This document shows, piece by piece, positions 12,953 through 45,407 of a stretch of 46,109 nt of DNA. Source of the DNA: a virus. The notes under the pieces are model-generated. The model had not been told where the DNA came from, did not search any database, and was given only the letters and a program-made list of their open reading frames with translations. The stretch covers positions 1 through 46,109 of IMG/VR virus record IMGVR_UViG_3300017963_000376. The stretch is one strand, 5' to 3'. The position numbers were made by a program, and so were the translations under genes. Each line of letters opens with the position of its first letter. Within the stretch, counting starts at the first letter, position 1.

Positions 12953-15652
<2,700 letters not shown>

Positions 15653-19321: not shown

Positions 19322-19934
19322 TATTTGCCTCCGATAATATATTAAAAAATTCTTGCTCCGCATTTATCATTTTCTTTTCATCTGTTTTATATTTGAAATC
19401 TTTTAAGAACTTTATTATTTTTTTGCCTATATCAATTTGATCATTCTTTTTGTCAATGTTTTTATTAAGACTATCAATTTGAGCATCTAATGTCTGATGA
19501 AAAATATTAAAATCTTTTTTAGAACTTATTCTTTTTTTTACAATTTTGAGCATTCGTTGTTTGCTTTTAAGGCCATCAATTTCTTTTTTAAAATTTCTCT
19601 CTTGCCTTTGTATTGTCTCTGCCATTACCTTAAAAATATTAGCATACAAGTATTGATCATCTTTCCTTAAAGCATCTATAGTTTGATAGAATAAACCGAT
19701 TAAAATATCATTGAATAAATTTTTAGTATTATCTTTTGCCCTACCATGTGTATCGTAATATTCTTTAGATTCAGGATTGCTGATTATTGCATAGGCTTCG
19801 CTAATATCAGCAAATTTTTTCATATCACCACCTTTATCCGGATGATTTTCTTTTGCCAATTTGCGATAAGCAGATTTAATTTCCTGCTGAGTAGCATTTT
19901 TATTAAGACCTAATATTCTATAAATATCAGTCAA
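19299..19934 (-). CDS. J-domain (DnaJ-like) co-chaperone
   Basis: A 211-residue protein with a canonical N-terminal J domain (YRILGLNKNATQQEIKSAYR, HPD at residues 31-33, ISEAYAIISNPESKEYYD), which stimulates host DnaK. It lacks the Gly/Phe, zinc and substrate domains; instead a long charged coiled coil (about residues 100-200) follows, so it is a class III J protein with its own targeting domain. The start is a TTG at 19934 because a stop lies in frame just upstream; AGGGG is about ten bases before it. It heads the portal operon, so it may recruit DnaK to portal or head assembly. Confidence 0.85.
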   Translation of the reverse strand: MTDIYRILGLNKNATQQEIKSAYRKLAKENHPDKGGDMKKFADISEAYAIISNPESKEYYDTHGRAKDNTKNLFNDILIGLFYQTIDALRKDDQYLYANIFKVMAETIQRQERNFKKEIDGLKSKQRMLKIVKKRISSKKDFNIFHQTLDAQIDSLNKNIDKKNDQIDIGKKIIKFLKDFKYKTDEKKMINAEQEFFNILSEANSGTSTTR

Positions 19935-19983
19935 TTGAATTATATCCCCTCACTTATTTTATATATCTTCCTTTAAATCAAAG

Positions 19984-20132
19984 GTGGAGCTACCAAGGAT
20001 TTGCACCTTGGATAATAGACTTTAAGAAGTTATCAACTTCTCAGAGTCGCCTTTGGCTACTATATTAAACCCTGATTAAAAGGTTTATGTCTATCTACAC
20101 TCAACAGAGTCTACCTTTTCCTCCATAGCTCC
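19984..20132 (-). ncRNA. tRNA-like element with oversized core (149 nt)
   Basis: The ends form a perfect 7-bp acceptor-like stem (GGAGCTA with TAGCTCC), followed by A and CC, as a discriminator and partial CCA. Next to it is a T-arm-like hairpin (CAAGG, loop TGCAAAT, CCTTG), and after the 5' strand a D-arm-like GAG...CTC with a GGTAGA loop. A perfect anticodon-like arm (AGAAG, loop TTGATAA, CTTCT) is also present. However, the total is about 60 nt too long, and extra hairpins fill the core between two copies of GACTCTG. It is either a tRNA with an insertion, a degenerate tRNA, or a tRNA mimic. An aminoacylatable tRNA is not shown. Confidence 0.35.
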
Positions 20133-20134
20133 AT

Positions 20135-20157
20135 AAAAAAGGCCTCGGTCAGACCCT
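20135..20157 (-). terminator. Weak intrinsic-terminator-like stem with T-run
   Basis: On the minus strand GGTC and GGCC pair around a seven-base loop and are followed by TTTTTT. The stem is short (four to six pairs with wobbles). It sits between the hairpin array and the tRNA-like element and could end the array transcript. Confidence 0.4.
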
Positions 20158-20161
20158 ATTG

Positions 20162-20205
20162 TTATCTACCCGATGCAAATGCATCCTGCCGAATAAGATA
20201 GATAA
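20162..20205 (-). ncRNA. Hairpin of the array (TTATCTA/TAGATAA with inner GATGC stem)
   Basis: A 7-bp outer stem (20162-20168 with 20199-20205) encloses a second perfect stem, GATGC/GCATC with an AAAT loop (20172-20185). It is the array member nearest the terminator-like stem. Confidence 0.5.
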
Positions 20206-20246
20206 ACCAAACGGATGGCACAAATTTTCAATAGTTATACCATCCG
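20202..20246 (-). ncRNA. Array hairpin with conserved box (CGGATGG stem)
   Basis: A perfect 7-bp stem CGGATGG/CCATCCG (20212-20218 with 20240-20246). The plus-strand box ATAAACCAAA (20202-20211) directly abuts it; on the transcribed strand this reads stem then TTTGGTTTAT. Confidence 0.6.
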
Positions 20247-20285
20247 CTCATTTCCATTCAAGGAGAACAAAAATCCTTAAATCAG

Positions 20286-20323
20286 TGGGACGGCGGATTA
20301 AATATGCAAACACAACCGTCCCA
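20286..20323 (-). ncRNA. Array hairpin (TGGGACGG stem)
   Basis: A perfect 8-bp stem TGGGACGG/CCGTCCCA with a 22-base loop. It lacks the AACCAAA box, but is preceded on the plus strand by TCCTTAAATCA, similar to TCCTTTAAATCA beside the tRNA-like element. Confidence 0.5.
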
Positions 20324-20396
20324 TATTAGTTAAACCAATGCTTACTTGACTACTGATATCATCTTTCAGCGTTTTTCGGCAATTACAATTCCTTAG

Positions 20397-20419
20397 AGGA
20401 GTTCCGGATTGCTACTCCT
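20397..20419 (-). ncRNA. Array hairpin (AGGAGT stem)
   Basis: A 6-bp perfect stem AGGAGT/ACTCCT with an 11-base loop; TTCCTTAG precedes it on the plus strand. Shorter than the other array stems, so less certain. Confidence 0.4.
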
Positions 20420-20439
20420 AATCTACTGCATACTACCGT

Positions 20440-20466
20440 CCACTACTTTTATTTTGCGCTTAGTGG
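20440..20466 (-). ncRNA. Array hairpin (CCACTA stem)
   Basis: A 6-bp perfect stem CCACTA/TAGTGG with a 15-base loop, just before the next box-bearing hairpin. Weakest member by stem length. Confidence 0.35.
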
Positions 20467-20481
20467 TCATGCGACTTGTTT

Positions 20482-20548
20482 ATAAACCAAAGCAGTCAAT
20501 ACCGGTCTGTACAGGTTGGGGATAGACATGACCAGAGATATTGACTGC
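20482..20548 (-). ncRNA. Array hairpin with conserved box (GCAGTCAATA stem)
   Basis: A perfect 10-bp stem GCAGTCAATA/TATTGACTGC (20492-20501 with 20539-20548) with an inner CTGGTC/GACCGG helix. The box ATAAACCAAA (20482-20491) abuts the stem exactly. Confidence 0.65.
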
Positions 20549-20567
20549 ATTTTTATATATGCTTGAA

Positions 20568-20632
20568 ATAAGCCAAAACAGCCAGCACCGGCCTTCATCA
20601 ACAGAACGGAATACCGGGGAATGGCTGGCTGT
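20568..20632 (-). ncRNA. Array hairpin with conserved box (ACAGCCAGC stem)
   Basis: A perfect 9-bp stem ACAGCCAGC/GCTGGCTGT (20578-20586 with 20624-20632) and an inner ACCGG/CCGGT-type pairing. The box variant ATAAGCCAAA (20568-20577) abuts the stem. Confidence 0.65.
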
Positions 20633-20667
20633 AAAATATTTGAAGTTAGTTATTGTTACCATGAAAA

Positions 20668-20714
20668 GGAAACCAAAAGGGTAGTTAGCATAAGACTAAA
20701 AACACTAACTACCC
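20668..20714 (-). ncRNA. Array hairpin with conserved box (GGGTAGTTAG stem)
   Basis: A perfect 10-bp stem GGGTAGTTAG/CTAACTACCC (20679-20688 with 20705-20714), loop 16 bases, with box GGAAACCAAA (20668-20677) one base away. It lies just downstream of the SH3 gene stop, so it could also act as its terminator; on the minus strand the stem is followed by TTTTGGTTT. Confidence 0.65.
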
Positions 20715-20748
20715 ACGACATTATTTACCTTTAGGAGGATTTTAATAT

Positions 20749-21180
20749 CTATTCTACGCAGACCTTTGAGATCCAACCTAACTTGGTTTTATACCAAACA
20801 ATATTTTTATCTATAATTTTAATAGCTGCTCCGCCTTTTACTGTGCCATCAAGTGTATCTTCTGCCTTTCGAGGTTCAGTTCTTAAGGCTGCTCCTTGAT
20901 GTAGTACAACGCCATCACCAACATATTTAGAATACATCCATCCTTTATCGCCTACACGGGTTGAAGTACTTTTCTTATCTTTACCTTTTATGACTTCGAT
21001 ATAAATATAATCAGCCCATGCTTCGAGAACTTCCAGTTCCGTACCGGGTTTCGCAGAATCGATAATCTCAGATTTTGCACTATGATTTTTTCGAACATTT
21101 GCCCATTCTTTAATTGTAATAGTCTCAGCTGCAAAAATTACTGATACCATAATTAATGTTAACATTAAAAGTTTTTTCAT
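20749..21180 (-). CDS. Secreted protein with two SH3b domains
   Basis: A 143-residue protein with a clear signal peptide (MKKLLMLTLIMVSVIFAA, cleavage near residue 18), then two bacterial SH3-like domains (about 20-80 and 85-143). The first contains WANVRKNHSAKSEIID and the second ALRTEPRKAED, both typical of SH3b cores, which bind cell-wall peptides. There is no catalytic domain, so it is not an endolysin. SD AGGAG precedes the ATG, and a consensus promoter lies just upstream, so it is transcribed independently of the terminase. This resembles a moron-type gene acting in the envelope, perhaps in lysis control or superinfection exclusion. Confidence 0.85.
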   Translation of the reverse strand: MKKLLMLTLIMVSVIFAAETITIKEWANVRKNHSAKSEIIDSAKPGTELEVLEAWADYIYIEVIKGKDKKSTSTRVGDKGWMYSKYVGDGVVLHQGAALRTEPRKAEDTLDGTVKGGAAIKIIDKNIVWYKTKLGWISKVCVE

Positions 21181-21208: not shown

Positions 21209-21237
21209 ATTATATAATACTTACATACTGATGTCAA
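21209..21237 (-). promoter_or_regulatory. Consensus promoter for the SH3 gene and hairpin region
   Basis: Minus-strand TTGACA (21237-21232), 17-base spacer, TATAAT (21214-21209): a perfect sigma-70 class match. The predicted start is near 21202, about 22 bases before the ATG. The spacer matches that of the promoter at 41030-41058 at 13 of 17 positions, and both are followed by AAG. Confidence 0.85.
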
Positions 21238-23224: not shown

Positions 23225-23806
23225 TTAAATCTGTGTAAATTTACATGACTTATACTGCTCACATATTTCTTTTATCTTAGGTACCATTTTCCAATCTTTT
23301 TTATCAACTGTTATAGCGATTTTAATTATATTATCGTCCTTATCAGATCCGGCACCTGTGTCTTTGAATTGTTTCCAGTCAAAATTCATAAGTGCAATCT
23401 GCCTATCAAGCTCTTCCTGTGAATAAGGCATAGTTACTTCAAGGTCTTTTATATCAATTTCTTTCTGTAAATCAGATATAATCTCAGCTAATTTTATATT
23501 GTCAGTCTCAAATTTAGTCTCATTTGTCTCAATAGCAATTCTTTTAGCCTGCAGCTCTGAAATCTCCCCGAAGTCATACGCCATTACTTTGGCCATATTG
23601 AGCTTATTAAATACATCAAGCCTATGGTTTCCGTTTAATACTTCCCATTCATATTTGCCTTTTATTCTTCTGATAAGGATATTTTCGACCTGACCGTTCT
23701 TTTTTATCTGATTAAGGAGCTTTTGGGACAGTTCCTCATTTTCTGTCTTATAATTCCAAGCAGCTTTTTTTAAAAATTTAATCTCTATTTCTTTCCATTC
23801 TCCCAT
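23225..23806 (-). CDS. ParB/Sulfiredoxin-like domain protein (first of two)
   Basis: From the ATG at 23806, which has AGAGG six bases upstream, the product has 193 residues; the ATG at 23827 has no SD. The ParB N-terminal fold is visible: KLLNQIKKNGQVENILIRR and then EVLNGNHRLDVFNKL, the GxHR box that binds nucleotide or acts in nuclease activity. The second half is helical. It is four bases from the terminase small subunit, a common location for phage ParB-like proteins, which may nick DNA, modify host protein or regulate packaging. The true role is unknown. Confidence 0.78.
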   Translation of the reverse strand: MGEWKEIEIKFLKKAAWNYKTENEELSQKLLNQIKKNGQVENILIRRIKGKYEWEVLNGNHRLDVFNKLNMAKVMAYDFGEISELQAKRIAIETNETKFETDNIKLAEIISDLQKEIDIKDLEVTMPYSQEELDRQIALMNFDWKQFKDTGAGSDKDDNIIKIAITVDKKDWKMVPKIKEICEQYKSCKFTQI

Positions 23807-24633
23807 ACGATTCCTCTCTTTGTCCATAAGTCGGTATAATACTTTTCCATCAATGAAAATTGTTCTGCGCTATAAATTGCTGTATAACCCTCAAAATTAC
23901 CCTGTAAGCTAACCTGTTTTAATAACTTAACTGGCAGCCTCCTCACAACAGCTTCTTTATCTACATGGGTTGCGATTCGTTTTAATCTACCATTCTTGAA
24001 CTCGAATACTTGTCCGAATCTCTCCGAAGATACCCAGCTTGAGCTATCAGAGGAGAAAAAAGGGTACTTATTGAACATATCATCCTTTGTTACGCCCAAA
24101 GCGTGTACTTTGACCTTATCTATCTGCTTCGTATCAAGCAAGTATCTAAAAAATCCATTCAGATAATTTTTATACCTTACATCATCTGAAGTCTTAAAAT
24201 TTGCCGTCCAAGATATCGCTATATAAGGATATATATCAATAAAGGCTTGGATTTGCTGCAGACTCATTTTATCAGATACGATTCCTATAGTCGGTATACC
24301 TTCTGAGGTTAATGCTTTAAAATTATCTAATTGTTCTTCATAAGTGCCTTGATCAAGGGTGAAAAAATAACTACAAGAATCAATATTCGCTTTACAAAAG
24401 TCTATATATTTATCCAAGGGCAATATTTCATCCTTCTGCCTTGCAGTAAATACTCCGCTATCAATAACAATTTTTTTATTTATTTTACTACATAAGTCCT
24501 TAATGATACTAAATCTATCACTCTGCTTTGACTTAATATAATAATATGAGATTAAAATATCATTCTTTACTTTAGTATTTTTGAGCAAAAATTCAGTTCT
24601 TTTATCTAGATTTGTTGCCAGAAATATCTTCAT
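23785..24633 (-). CDS. dpdA: DpdA-like 7-deazaguanine transglycosylase (TGT fold)
   Basis: A 282-residue protein that looks like the TIM-barrel tRNA-guanine transglycosylase superfamily in its phage form. Supporting blocks are IDSGVFTARQKD (Asp58), TLDQG (Asp94), GIPTIGIVSDKMS, VHALGVTKDDM (His177) and YPFFSSDSSSW, where Asp196 is the expected nucleophile. In DpdA, a guanine in DNA is swapped for a 7-deazaguanine base. The neighbouring QueD, QueE and FolE genes supply the precursor, which supports the DNA-modifying role over a tRNA role. It overlaps the ParB-like gene. The symbol is given on motif and context only. Confidence 0.7.
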   Translation of the reverse strand: MKIFLATNLDKRTEFLLKNTKVKNDILISYYYIKSKQSDRFSIIKDLCSKINKKIVIDSGVFTARQKDEILPLDKYIDFCKANIDSCSYFFTLDQGTYEEQLDNFKALTSEGIPTIGIVSDKMSLQQIQAFIDIYPYIAISWTANFKTSDDVRYKNYLNGFFRYLLDTKQIDKVKVHALGVTKDDMFNKYPFFSSDSSSWVSSERFGQVFEFKNGRLKRIATHVDKEAVVRRLPVKLLKQVSLQGNFEGYTAIYSAEQFSLMEKYYTDLWTKRGIVWENGKK

Positions 24634-25382
24634 ACTGAATTATACTCCTGAAGTACTGAATTGCTTAATCTTAATAACCTTAATGTCCTTGAAACTAATT
24701 CTTTAGTCGTCTTTTGCAGGTTATAAGTTTTCTTCTGCGTATCTAAATGAAAAGCTAATGCCTTGCTGGCCATATAAACCTTTTTATCGTTTTCTTTTAA
24801 AATTTGCCCTGCGATCCAATCTTCCCCTAATGTAGTTTCTTTCTCTACTTCAGGGAATATATCAATATCTAATTTCTTTTTATTAAATAAAGTGTTACCT
24901 AAATCAAGATGTATCCTTTCAAGTGAAAAATCAGTCTCATATATTGCAAAAGGATTATTGCTTTTTTCTTTTGTCGGCTCAATCGAATAATCTTTATAAC
25001 TATGTCTGTTAGAAACATCGACTTTACAACCTACAACCGCAGCACATCTCCTGTACTTAATTGTTTTCACTAATTGATATAGGCAAACAGGCATATAATA
25101 TACATCACTATTTAAAAACCAAATATAATCTGACTCAACACTAATCATTTGTCTGTACATATTAACCATACCAGTGTCTTTGTCAATTCTTATCTCAACC
25201 TTAATAAAGTTTGCTCTAAGTAAGGCGATCACTTGTTCAAAATAAAATTCAGAAATATTTAATATATTTCCCTGTACAAAAATAACTACTTTTTTAGGTT
25301 TTAATATCTGCCCTGCAAGTGAAGATAGAGTAAGTAAGGTTTCTGCCCCTACCGATCGCAATCCGACTACTGCTGTTGCCAT
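24630..25382 (-). CDS. Glycosyltransferase, GT2-like (GT-A fold)
   Basis: A 250-residue protein with an N-terminal GT-A nucleotide-binding start (ATAVVGLRSVGAETLLTLSS), a metal-binding-like segment SDYIWFLNSDVYYMP (NSD in place of DxD), a conserved GEDWIAGQIL near residues 200-212 (ED acid motif), and a basic C-terminus. It transfers a sugar from a nucleotide donor to an unknown acceptor. It overlaps the upstream GT-B gene by one base and the DpdA-like gene by four, so the three are probably made together. Confidence 0.75.
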   Translation of the reverse strand: MATAVVGLRSVGAETLLTLSSLAGQILKPKKVVIFVQGNILNISEFYFEQVIALLRANFIKVEIRIDKDTGMVNMYRQMISVESDYIWFLNSDVYYMPVCLYQLVKTIKYRRCAAVVGCKVDVSNRHSYKDYSIEPTKEKSNNPFAIYETDFSLERIHLDLGNTLFNKKKLDIDIFPEVEKETTLGEDWIAGQILKENDKKVYMASKALAFHLDTQKKTYNLQKTTKELVSRTLRLLRLSNSVLQEYNSV

Positions 25383-26449
25383 TAAATTAGCCCCATTAAT
25401 TGTAAATATCGCTCAACTGACTTATCATAATACTCAGGAATTTTTAATAATTCTTTATCGAAAATAGAGTGCCTATCAATAACCTCAGCTGCACTTTCTG
25501 CACTTCTTGGCTCATATAAATACTCTGCTGGTAAGTATTCAGGGAAACTACGATACTTTGGGTAAATAGGAATGCAATGATAAGTCAAACTTTCAAGTAA
25601 TGTCCAACTAAGCCAATCTTGGTAAGCTGTATTTAACTGATACTTTGACTTCATCAATTCATTGTAGTATTGTTTTTTTGTAAGACCGGTTTTAATTGTG
25701 ATAATACCTTTCTTTTCCGCAGCTTTAAATTCCTTAACAATAATTGGCCTATTTGATCGCAATTCCTTAGCAGAGGTCGTAATAACAAATTCATACCTAG
25801 ATTTAAGCATTTCTGCGATTCTAAGCACTAGCATAGGATTTTTCTCGGAGTCTAATCTTGATGTATATATAATTTGATTTTTCTTTGCTGAGACGTTCCT
25901 AGGGGCAAATTTGAGCAACTCCTGAAGATTATAGGGCAATCCTCCGAAAAATACGTTTTTTAGACCAGCTTCTGTACATAAGTCGATTAAATACTCACTT
26001 GTACAAAAAACGCCTGACATATAATTAGATTGACCTATTTCGTAATGCCTCATCCAATTTTTCATTTTATATGTAAAGTCATACTTGTCAACTGACTGGG
26101 CATGGAGCATTGCATAAATTTTGATACTAATCCCCAGTTGACTACATATATAAGGAATTGCCTCAATGCCGGGTGTCCAAAAATCATCAAGGTATAATAT
26201 ATCCCCATCTTTAATTTTTCCTGACTTAATCAATTTAACTACTTTTGCAATCTGAGTCAGCGAATAATAACTCCGATTATAACAATCTAATACTTGACCA
26301 TTTCTAATATCTTTCCCTAATGACTCTCCCTCTACTCTCATAAACTTAATTTTATATTTTTTGAGCTTACTTTCAAACCATCCATTTTTTGAACTTAATA
26401 ATATAGTGTACCGCTCCTTATAAGGCTCCAAAGGCAAATAAACTAACAT
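25382..26449 (-). CDS. Glycosyltransferase, GT-B fold (GT4-like)
   Basis: A 355-residue GT-B enzyme. The C-terminal half has the family signatures YTSRLDSEKNPMLVLRIAEM (donor-binding loop) and LLESLTYHCIPIYPKYRSFP, corresponding to the E-x7-E phosphate-binding region. The N-terminal half has Rossmann strands, including DGDILYLDDFWTPGIEAIPY, and the acceptor-facing helix. It sits between the QueD-like protein and a GT2-like enzyme, next to the deazaguanine genes. The acceptor could be modified DNA or a virion/host glycan. Confidence 0.8.
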   Translation of the reverse strand: MLVYLPLEPYKERYTILLSSKNGWFESKLKKYKIKFMRVEGESLGKDIRNGQVLDCYNRSYYSLTQIAKVVKLIKSGKIKDGDILYLDDFWTPGIEAIPYICSQLGISIKIYAMLHAQSVDKYDFTYKMKNWMRHYEIGQSNYMSGVFCTSEYLIDLCTEAGLKNVFFGGLPYNLQELLKFAPRNVSAKKNQIIYTSRLDSEKNPMLVLRIAEMLKSRYEFVITTSAKELRSNRPIIVKEFKAAEKKGIITIKTGLTKKQYYNELMKSKYQLNTAYQDWLSWTLLESLTYHCIPIYPKYRSFPEYLPAEYLYEPRSAESAAEVIDRHSIFDKELLKIPEYYDKSVERYLQLMGLI

Positions 26450-26751
26450 ACTTCTGCTCCATTTTCATTATCTTCAAGTACTGAGCAATAAGATAGTCTA
26501 AATTTATTAAACAAATTACTTGCAATCAATTCACAACTTGCTGTATCCCAAGAATTACTTTTTAAATATTCAAGTATTTTTCTCTTCAAACTTATTATCT
26601 CAATCTGTCTCTCTGTATGCTCAACTTTTTTCTTACAAGTAATATAAAATATATGTCTATGAGGATATTTCAAATACTCTACTTCAGGCAAATTGCATTC
26701 TGGCCATCTATGTATAGCCTCAAATTGTAACTTCACTATAATATTGATCAT
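26443..26751 (-). CDS. Divergent QueD-like (T-fold) small protein
   Basis: A 102-residue protein with FEAIHRWPEC, KYPHRHIFYITCKKKVEHTE, ASCELIASNLFNKF and a VLEDNENGAEV end. The order His, HxH strand, SCE..A helix and final ED motif follows that of QueD/PTPS T-fold proteins (AH, HGH, TAE.LA, ET), but with WP and shorter loops. It is coupled by overlap to the FolE fusion gene and the GT-B gene. It may handle a pterin or deazaguanine intermediate, or may be a catalytically altered QueD paralogue. Similar small proteins occur in other phages. Assignment is an inference. Confidence 0.6.
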   Translation of the reverse strand: MINIIVKLQFEAIHRWPECNLPEVEYLKYPHRHIFYITCKKKVEHTERQIEIISLKRKILEYLKSNSWDTASCELIASNLFNKFRLSYCSVLEDNENGAEVC

Positions 26752-27626
26752 TTTACTAATCCTATGAACTCTGTCCTTGCTTCTTTCTTTTCAAGGAATA
26801 CGCCCTTTAAGCTAGATGTTACCATTTTACTTTTTTGTTTTTCTACACCTCTTGAAGTCATACAAAAATGCTGAGCCTCAAGGATACATCCAGCTCCTTT
26901 GGCATTAAGCGATTCCATTATAAAACATGTAATTTGCTCCCCGATTCTTTCTTGAATTTGGAGGCGACGAGAAAACACCTCAAGCAAACGGGCAAGTTTT
27001 GATACTCCGAGTACTTTGTCTTTCGGAATATATGCAATATGAGCCTTCCCAAAAAACGGTAACATATGATGTTCACAAGTAGAATAAAATTCAATATCCT
27101 TAAGCAACACCATTTGATTATATGTTTCCTTATCGAAAACTTTAAGTAATTTTTTAGGGTCTTCATTGTATCCTCCATATAATTTTTGCCAAGATTTTCT
27201 TACTCTCTCAGGCGTTTCTTTTAAACCTTCTCGATTAGGATTTTCTCCGATAAATTCAATCTGCCTAATAACTGTATCTTCAATATCGTTTTCTTTTTCC
27301 CAAGGGAATTTTATCCAACCCTCAATCTTTTCTGCATAATACGTGACTTCATTTTCTTTGTTATTCTTTACTAATAAAACTGCTTTATCATTATCATAGT
27401 TAGACAAAGTTTTACCGCTATCAATAATATCATCAACTATTAAACTATGTGACTTTAAATAATTGGATATAGGAATCTGTAGAATATTACTTAATACAAC
27501 TGCTACAGGATAACCTCCCATTGGAACAGGCCATATCTCAGAATATTTTTTACCTGAGTCAATTATAGTACCTGCTAATTTTACTGTATGGAGATCAATT
27601 TCTGTATTTGTAAGCTTAACTTGCAT
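26748..27626 (-). CDS. folE: Phosphoribosyltransferase-like domain fused to GTP cyclohydrolase I (FolE)
   Basis: A 292-residue fusion. Residues 1-90 resemble a small type I phosphoribosyltransferase: EIWPVPMGGYPVAVVLSN and the PRPP-binding loop VDDIIDSGKT (64-73). Residues about 115-292 are FolE type I, with zinc ligands Cys184, His187 and Cys255 in STCEHHMLPFFGKAH and HFCMTSRGVEK. FolE converts GTP to dihydroneopterin triphosphate, the first step to preQ0. The ATG at 27626 has AAGGAG eight bases upstream, inside the end of queE. The fused PRTase is unusual and could channel purines into the path. Confidence 0.88.
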   Translation of the reverse strand: MQVKLTNTEIDLHTVKLAGTIIDSGKKYSEIWPVPMGGYPVAVVLSNILQIPISNYLKSHSLIVDDIIDSGKTLSNYDNDKAVLLVKNNKENEVTYYAEKIEGWIKFPWEKENDIEDTVIRQIEFIGENPNREGLKETPERVRKSWQKLYGGYNEDPKKLLKVFDKETYNQMVLLKDIEFYSTCEHHMLPFFGKAHIAYIPKDKVLGVSKLARLLEVFSRRLQIQERIGEQITCFIMESLNAKGAGCILEAQHFCMTSRGVEKQKSKMVTSSLKGVFLEKKEARTEFIGLVK

Positions 27627-28150
27627 TCTGGATACTCCTTAATTATCCTAACACATTTATCTATATATTCTTTTTTATTGCTTTCTGATTGAAGATAAAT
27701 ATCAAAAGCATACTTAAAAGAATCCATTATTCTATCTATGTTAAATTTTTCTCCAACTATATACTTAACTTCATTTGTAAAAAAAGGATAATAAGAATAA
27801 TCATTTTCTTTTTTCGGCGAACAGGTTATCCAGTCGGCTATTATTTTTTGTGTTCCATTAGTTTCAACTTGTACATAATAACCTCTTTCTTTTAATTTAA
27901 GAATAAATTGATTTATATTAGGCACAATTCCCGGCTCGCCTCCAGTTAATACAATATGAGAATATTGCTCATATTTTTTAATTTCTTTTATAATATCGCC
28001 AAATGTCATTAATTTGAAAGTTTGATGTTTAGTATCACAAAAAGGACAACTTAAATTGCAGCCTGAAAATCTTATAAAGATTACTGCTTGACCAGTATAA
28101 AATCCTTCCCCTTGGATTGATATGAAAATTTCATTAATTTTATAATTCAT
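27581..28150 (-). CDS. queE: 7-carboxy-7-deazaguanine synthase (QueE)
   Basis: A radical-SAM enzyme of 189 residues from the ATG at 28150; a TTG at 28159 is a weaker choice. The cluster motif is CNLSCPFC (Cys31, Cys35, Cys38, the canonical CX3CX2C) after QGEGFYTGQAVIFIRFSG, and TGGEPG follows. QueE converts carboxytetrahydropterin to 7-carboxy-7-deazaguanine (CDG). It overlaps queD by 11 bases upstream and the FolE fusion by 46 downstream, so one polycistron makes the pathway from GTP to CDG. Confidence 0.92.
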   Translation of the reverse strand: MNYKINEIFISIQGEGFYTGQAVIFIRFSGCNLSCPFCDTKHQTFKLMTFGDIIKEIKKYEQYSHIVLTGGEPGIVPNINQFILKLKERGYYVQVETNGTQKIIADWITCSPKKENDYSYYPFFTNEVKYIVGEKFNIDRIMDSFKYAFDIYLQSESNKKEYIDKCVRIIKEYPECKLSLQIQKLISIQ

Positions 28151-28490
28151 AGATCGCAATATTCTTTGGTGTTTCTGCTACTGAAATTTTAATATTTTGT
28201 ACTTTAAATTTATCTTTTAATTCATTCGCCCAGTACCATGCTAAATGTTCTGCTGTAGGATTTGATTTTAATTCCTTTGGTAGCTTGTCATTTAAATAAC
28301 AATGATCAAATTGATTAAAATATTTTTTAATTTCACTAAAATCAATTATCATGCCATTACAGATTGTTTTATCATTTTTGATTTCTATATCAATTTCCCA
28401 TCTATGACCATGTAAATTATTACACTTGCTTTCGTATGGTAGCTCTAATTTATGAGCAGAATCTATTGAAACATGAGTTTTAATTATCAT
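28140..28490 (-). CDS. queD: 6-carboxy-5,6,7,8-tetrahydropterin synthase (QueD)
   Basis: A 116-residue protein. SAHKL (His13) and NLHGHRW (His27, His29) form the zinc site, Cys23 is the catalytic cysteine, GMIIDFSEIKKYFNQFDH carries the Asp-His pair, and SNPTAEHLAWYW plus VAETP complete the QueD fold. It converts dihydroneopterin triphosphate to carboxytetrahydropterin. The length equals that of bacterial QueD. Its stop overlaps queE. Confidence 0.92.
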   Translation of the reverse strand: MIIKTHVSIDSAHKLELPYESKCNNLHGHRWEIDIEIKNDKTICNGMIIDFSEIKKYFNQFDHCYLNDKLPKELKSNPTAEHLAWYWANELKDKFKVQNIKISVAETPKNIAIYEL

Positions 28491-41029: not shown

Positions 41030-41058
41030 ATTATATAATTATTAAATACTAATGTCAA
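41030..41058 (-). promoter_or_regulatory. Consensus promoter for the glycan operon
   Basis: Minus-strand TTGACA (41058-41053), 17-base spacer, TATAAT (41035-41030). The -35 and -10 plus flanks match the promoter at 21209-21237, suggesting coordinated control. The -35 overlaps the end of the HNH-like gene. The predicted start is within one or two bases of the ATG at 41024. Confidence 0.8.
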
Positions 41059-44738: not shown

Positions 44739-45407
44739 CTAAAAATCCCATTTACTTTTCGGTTCTGCTTTTAAAGGAAATAAACCTTGCCAGCCATTTT
44801 CGATACTTTGTTTAATCATTTTAATAGCTGCATCTGAACCAACTTTTTCTAATTTTGATAATTGAGCTATTGCAGTTGTTGGAGTTATTTTCTTTTTAAT
44901 CTCTTTTCTGAATTGAGCCCAAATTTCCCAAGTTTCTTTAAATTCTGGTGTATCTAATACAGTAGGGAATAAAATCTCTTTATTACATGTATTATTCTTT
45001 GTATTATTACATGTATTATTCTCTTTCGAATTTTCTTGATACCCTATGCGAATTTTCTTGATACCCTGTTCGAATTTATTTGATACCCTATCAAGTTTAT
45101 TTGATACCTCTTTAGAATAAAAAACAGTCATTTTAATGATTCTTTTTGAAATTTCTTTACCTTTTCTCTCATATGTTATTTTGATAAAACCTTTTTTTTC
45201 AATACTTTTTATAATCTGACTGCATCTCTGTTTGGTGATTGCAAAAAAATCAGCGAAATATTGGTTGCTTGCCCAACATCCTTCTTTATTATTTAGACTA
45301 TCAATTTCCACTAAAAATATTTTTTCAAGTATTGTTAATTCTTTAGTTAACCATAATTTAGCAGGTATCCATATACCTTTAAATTGTCTTTTTTGATTTT
45401 CTTTCAA
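44739..45407 (-). CDS. Replication initiator (O-like) protein with origin repeats in its gene
   Basis: A 222-residue protein starting at TTG 45407 with GGGAGG six bases upstream. The N-terminal winged-helix region (WASNQYFADFFAITKQRCSQ, then IIKSIEKKGFIKITYERKGK) is typical of phage initiator proteins. The middle encodes low-complexity NNTCNN residues and repeats that correspond to DNA iterons (45027-45114). The C-terminal helical part (ETWEIWAQFRKEIKKKITPT and AIKMIKQSIENGWQGLF) is typical of O/DnaT-like loader-binding domains. The gene with internal iterons mirrors lambda O. Confidence 0.78.
   Translation of the reverse strand: MKENQKRQFKGIWIPAKLWLTKELTILEKIFLVEIDSLNNKEGCWASNQYFADFFAITKQRCSQIIKSIEKKGFIKITYERKGKEISKRIIKMTVFYSKEVSNKLDRVSNKFEQGIKKIRIGYQENSKENNTCNNTKNNTCNKEILFPTVLDTPEFKETWEIWAQFRKEIKKKITPTTAIAQLSKLEKVGSDAAIKMIKQSIENGWQGLFPLKAEPKSKWDF
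44981..45024 (-). repeat. AT-rich direct repeats (possible DNA unwinding element)
   Basis: Two 20-base copies (44981-45000 and 45005-45024), 24 bases apart, differ at one position (plus strand TATTACATGTATTATTCTNT). They contain an ACATGT palindrome and are almost pure AT, next to the iterons. In the protein they encode NNTC repeats. Together with the iterons they look like a replication origin core. Confidence 0.6.
45027..45114 (-). repeat. Four 22-bp iterons (likely replication origin)
   Basis: Four tandem units of exactly 22 bases (45027-45048, 45049-45070, 45071-45092, 45093-45114) with core GGGTATCAA(G/A)(A/T)AAATTCG on the minus strand; unit 4 is the most diverged. As 22 is not a multiple of three, each unit is read in a different frame, so the repeats are conserved as DNA, not as protein. 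Two helical turns per unit fits binding of one initiator per repeat on one face of the DNA. Confidence 0.8.

Follow-up and report, generated by a model that had tools for sequence, protein, structure and literature searches.

Some phages are known to encode small RNAs 3′ of their moron genes (PMC4104026), so small regulatory RNAs are a reasonable product of a non-coding tail in that position. For example, the anti-sRNAs AgvB and AsxR, found at moron sites of lambdoid phages, are single, short sRNAs that carry one terminator and occur in convergent pairs behind the moron gene (PMC4104026). ROOL and GOLLD are also phage RNAs; they are ornate, extend over several hundred nucleotides and often lie near tRNA islands (PMC12286853). 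The ToxI RNAs of type III toxin-antitoxin systems consist of tandem structured units, nearly identical in sequence and processed into pieces, that are encoded beside an endoribonuclease gene. CsrB and RsmZ similarly combine multiple hairpins with a repeated motif, in their case GGA displayed in the loops.

The window that we analyzed is the whole 46,109-base IMG/VR record of an uncultured virus of bacteria. On its minus strand, directly behind the stop codon of a gene for an SH3_3-domain protein, a non-coding stretch of approximately 600 bases carries a row of hairpins at positions 20162–20714 (hereafter, the array). The layout is that of AgvB and AsxR, with a predicted non-coding RNA 3′ of an accessory gene, a terminator and a location in the gap before the next phage gene. 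The likeness is one of layout and, unlike the lambdoid sRNAs, the array is a co-oriented hairpin row with a repeated 3′ box. It resembles ROOL and GOLLD in its length of several hundred nucleotides and in its proximity to a tRNA-like element, but its hairpins are modular and linear, it has no covariance-model match and a terminator-like site precedes the tRNA-like element. The tandem structured units recall ToxI, yet the array has neither near-identical repeats nor an endoribonuclease gene at its side. Multiple hairpins and a repeated motif are also features of CsrB and RsmZ, but the motif of the array (UUUGGYUUAU) flanks the stem instead of sitting in a loop, and GGA shows no enrichment.

An exact stem search, with dinucleotide shuffles as the null, identified six perfect Watson-Crick stems of at least 7 bp (7–10 bp) in positions 20162–20714, compared to 1.4 ± 1.2 expected from shuffles of the array (maximum of 6 in 200). 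Three stems reached at least 9 bp (0.07 expected) and 11 reached at least 6 bp (5.3 expected). Hence, the initial annotation, which described at least seven hairpins with stems of 6–10 bp, is accurate only when the 6-bp stems are counted. It had also called the region gene-free, as it is apart from one 60-codon ORF that has no relatives. The perfect stem arms are separated by loops of 16–37 nt. Equally many stems occur in some AT-rich parts of the window, where they are AT-rich by composition. The GC content of the array (39–43%) is higher than that of the genome (32%), as is typical for an accessory insert or a structured RNA.

In the direction of the minus strand, the array begins with hairpin H1 (20679–20714), which has a 10-bp perfect stem (13 bp including G-U pairs). 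It is followed by H2 (20578–20632), with a 9-bp outer stem and an inner CCGGU/GCCGG helix, and H3 (20492–20548), with a 10-bp stem (12 bp with G-U pairs) and an inner CUGGUC/GACCGG helix. The middle stretch (20345–20475) has weaker structure (z −1.2) and no box; it contains a 6-bp CCACTA/TAGTGG hairpin (20440–20466) and a GGAGT/ACTCC pairing (20398–20418). Beyond it are H4 (20286–20323; 8-bp stem), H5 (20212–20246; 7-bp perfect stem that G-U and A-U pairs lengthen further) and H6 (20162–20205; 7-bp stem with an inner GATGC/GCATC helix), the last without a box.

Five of the six hairpins continue the perfect stem inward with a pair that is U-G on the minus strand (0.19 expected for each; P ~0.001). 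Because a minus-strand U-G pair is an A-C mismatch on the plus strand, this pattern supports an RNA over a DNA structure. Every unit of the array also folds more stably as minus-strand than as plus-strand RNA, as in H5 (z of −5.4 and −3.2, respectively). For the whole array, the folding z against shuffles was −4.9 on the minus strand and −3.7 on the plus strand, a marginal difference, since 5% of the shuffles reach it. H2 and H3 share the sequence AGRCCGGT…TTTGGYTTAT (local alignment z 3.4) and are likely, from their sequences, to be diverged copies (paralogues). Four of their nine common stem pairs differ by double compensating changes and the other five are identical, with no pair disrupted; two of the changes in the inner helix pass through G-U pairs. 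They are the only hairpins of the array that align convincingly, and MAFFT/RNAalifold alignments of five hairpins misplace the stems of unequal length. Covariation between copies within one genome is weaker than covariation across species. Thus, the description of the locus as covarying structured RNA draws support from the G-U extensions, the folding and the H2/H3 pair, and is limited by covariation confined to two copies in one phage. We regard it as fairly firm, on sequence grounds, that the array is a predicted structured minus-strand RNA.

The sequence TTTGGYTTAT occurs three times in the 46 kb, counting both strands, at 20577, 20491 and 20211 (minus strand), and all three copies directly abut the 3′ arm of an array stem (9, 10 and 7 perfect pairs, respectively). 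These are the boxes after H2 (20568–20577; TTTGGCTTAT), H3 (20482–20491; TTTGGTTTAT) and H5 (20202–20211; TTTGGTTTAT). The last four bases of the H5 box are common to the H6 stem and can also pair there. The same box had been reported to abut four stems, which is true of the three exact copies; the fourth, after H1 (20668–20677; TTTGGTTTCC), is a variant separated from the stem by one T (read from 20678 as TTTTGGTTTCC, one base off the stem). Another variant follows H4 (20275–20285; CTGATTTAAGG). A second family of flanks, based on TCCTTAAATCA, was said to link the hairpin at 20286 with the tRNA-like element, and here the likeness is only partial (TGATTTAAGGA versus TGATTTAAAGGA on the minus strand).

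TTTGG follows 5 of the 240 minus-strand stems of at least 7 bp in the window, four of them array hairpins, and none of the plus-strand stems of that length. Other viral contigs, chosen for holding box-like sequence, contained 463 TTTGGYTTAT boxes, of which only 21 directly flank a stem of at least 7 bp; many of these 21 are identical coding repeats. The link between box and stem in the array is therefore not attributable to chance (three of three boxes versus 21 of 463 elsewhere, and four of the five TTTGG-followed minus-strand stems). Some folds pair the 5′ flank with the second half of the box in an outer helix, which did no better than shuffled flanks and was rejected.

The promoter that the initial annotation placed ahead of the hairpins is real: a sigma-70-type TTGACA-17-TATAAT sequence matching at 12 of 12 positions (21209–21237, minus strand), located in the gap that separates the terminase stop codon from the start of the SH3 gene. 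The hairpins do not follow it directly, however, as the SH3_3-domain gene (20749–21180, minus strand) lies in between. It encodes a 143-aa protein (PF08239, E 2e-12) whose N-terminus reads like a signal peptide. The window has two perfect matches to this promoter sequence in total, the other at 41030–41058 (minus strand). The start of the SH3 gene also contains a perfect 16-bp palindrome (TTAATGTTAACATTAA, 21153–21168), possibly an operator.

At the far end of the array, the terminator scan marked a hairpin with a T run resembling an intrinsic terminator (20139–20157, minus strand), which ends the unit. The scan returned two sites versus 1.0 expected, at 20157–20139 and at 20593–20580 (the inner part of H2). 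The array hairpins themselves were rejected as intrinsic terminators: they have loops of 16–37 nt and only one array stem passes the scan. The unit sits among head and packaging genes: the terminase lies upstream, and the genes for a DnaJ-like protein, the portal and head proteins follow downstream. It has its own predicted promoter (12 of 12), a terminator-like site and a non-coding tail of higher GC content, and the array is absent from the relatives examined. Promoter, SH3 gene, array and terminator-like site likely form a self-contained accessory unit with a moron layout.

Beyond the terminator-like site, a 147-nt element (19986–20132, minus strand; z −5.7) looks like a tRNA or an interrupted tRNA gene, which is not the same as a confirmed tRNA. 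Its parts resemble an acceptor stem (8 bp), a D arm (GAG-GAAAAGGTAGA-CTC) and a T arm (CAAGG-TGCAAAT-CCTTG), and a perfect 5-bp arm with the loop TTGATAA resembles that of an anticodon. An extra 63-nt stretch lies between GACTCTG repeats at 20111 and 20048, although a 7-base direct repeat within 150 bases is not rare by chance. ARAGORN at default settings found no tRNA at 19986–20132, with or without the 63-nt stretch; a cloverleaf with the anticodon GAT was returned only with a relaxed threshold and after removing the stretch and joining its flanks. With none detected at default settings, neither the array nor the element was retained as a tRNA or tmRNA. The element is followed by TTTGATTTAA, and TTTGATTTA behind it is a box-like site.

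The array was found in one other record, IMGVR_UViG_3300028840_003776 (59,357 bases), which is the same phage and carries it with 100% identity; a second near-identical contig of the phage ends before the array. When viral contigs were searched with the terminase, the portal, a portal alignment, the major head protein and the SH3 protein, every match was either the same phage again or a relative lacking the array. Neither the terminase relatives (up to 67% identity) nor approximately 70 portal relatives (up to 33% identity) had a box-bearing hairpin array, and the long gene gaps inspected in both groups held nothing similar. Genome contigs yielded no relative of the portal or SH3 protein. Among the matches listed for box-pair patterns in viral contigs was the phage itself, and those examined were mostly chance or coding repeats. 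The H2/H3 consensus also matched one extra viral contig, where the match is antisense within an ORF and lacks a stem. Blastn against phages and plasmids gave chance-level pieces only.

The array matches no described RNA family. Rfam 15 had no match at gathering score in the whole window, ROOL and GOLLD included, and a permissive search of 19900–20800 produced chance-level matches only. Pfam, NCBIfam and PADLOC identified no adjacent endoribonuclease gene of a type III toxin-antitoxin system; the neighboring genes have DnaJ, SH3_3 or terminase domains or nothing. Tandem Repeats Finder detected no near-identical tandem repeats in 19900–20800.

The reading that we favor, tentatively and at well under an even chance, is a moron-linked structured RNA in which the box is an RNase E-type processing site and the tail is cut into hairpin-capped RNAs. 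The minus-strand transcript would start at the sigma-70-type promoter and run through the SH3 gene and the six hairpins to the terminator-like hairpin. UUUGGYUUAU, predicted to be single-stranded between stable hairpins, would be the common working site. An RNase E-type endonuclease, if the host has one, would cut there, at G-G or G-A before U-U-U, leaving short, stable, hairpin-capped RNAs. The stems could differ because each would need only to be a stable cap. The nearest precedent for the products may be anti-sRNA or sponge activity, by analogy with the phage sRNAs at moron sites.

RNase E maps favor RN/WUU in single-stranded RNA (PMC5222698), a consensus that fits UUUGG/UUUAU after H3 and H5 and UUUGG/UUUCC after H1. 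GA/UUU, in the variant after H4 and after the tRNA-like element, fits as well. The H2 box (GG/CUU) departs from the consensus with a C at +1, and the consensus does not account for the three invariant U residues ahead of GG. A further point against a processing site is that neither H6 nor the middle stretch has a box. RN/WUU is a weak motif, with 22 matches in the array stretch alone, and the RNase E reading is therefore only a lead. Our case for a mechanism at the box, be it cleavage or protein binding, is weak. Among the roles initially offered (small RNAs, decoys or processing signals), we infer that the box would best fit a processing signal.

Four other readings come after processing in roughly the order given here. 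An uncut transcript showing at least four single-stranded UUUGGYUUAU sequences could act as a decoy or sponge that titrates either an RNA-binding protein of the host or some complementary RNA. Multi-copy display is a hallmark of decoys, and the box is the only conserved sequence, set between stable stems. However, only three exact copies and one variant are present and the box matches no known protein motif; we judge this function unlikely. A decoy for CsrA in particular was rejected, because GGA is at chance level and not enriched (9 observed versus 7.5 expected). The position immediately behind the SH3 stop codon would suit a structured 3′ UTR whose sole role is to protect or regulate the SH3 mRNA, with hairpins blocking exonucleases and U-rich boxes working as partial terminators. 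Such boxes after stems do resemble imperfect terminator tails, but ordinary intrinsic terminators do not have loops nearly as long as these (16–37 nt), the terminator scan accepts only one array stem (20593–20580) in addition to the terminal hairpin, and the invariant GG within the U tract goes unexplained. We consider it doubtful that the array does no more than this.

The repeats could also act at the DNA level or be inert, as remnants of a small mobile or recombination element or of a decaying RNA or tRNA cluster with no present function. The restriction of the array to one phage lineage among the viral contigs searched, the resemblance of H2/H3 to a duplication and the seemingly interrupted tRNA-like element are in line with this reading. 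We nonetheless judge it improbable: the stems are perfect and have G-U extensions on one strand, compensating changes between copies are not expected for inert DNA, and the stem sequences are not conserved, unlike those of REP sequences or transposon ends. Least probable, and quite unlikely, is a single large, composite RNA akin to ROOL and GOLLD, whose hairpins would radiate from a common fold that includes the tRNA-like element and whose boxes would make tertiary contacts. Approximately 770 nt fold at z −4.3 and adjoin that element; against this stand the absence of an Rfam match, permissive search included, the terminator-like site between array and element, and the weakly structured middle stretch.

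We give only a small chance to the broader proposal that the array represents a new class of phage RNA, in which a promoter-driven row of freely varying stems with a fixed single-stranded 3′ UUUGGYUUAU would be cut or bound at the box to provide several hairpin RNAs per transcript. Were the box a shared site of cleavage or binding, several hairpin RNAs would come from one short phage transcript, a compact route to several small regulators or decoys. As no described RNA family matches the array, the non-coding tails of accessory units in phages merit a structure-based search.

Other features of the window lie outside the accessory unit. An O-like replication-initiation protein gene (44739–45407, minus strand) contains approximately four copies of a 22-bp tandem repeat (45026–45108; TRF score ~100). 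The iterons of phage lambda lie inside gene O and, by analogy, the 22-bp repeats likely mark a replication origin. Genes for a GTP cyclohydrolase (FolE), a QueE-like radical SAM protein and a queuine tRNA-ribosyltransferase-like protein (23785–28159) suggest a 7-deazaguanine DNA modification pathway. An 899-aa head protein (12953–15652) matches the family of fused head proteases and major head proteins and includes a repetitive stretch. Among named phages, Microcystis phage Mae-JY22 provides its best match (26% identity).
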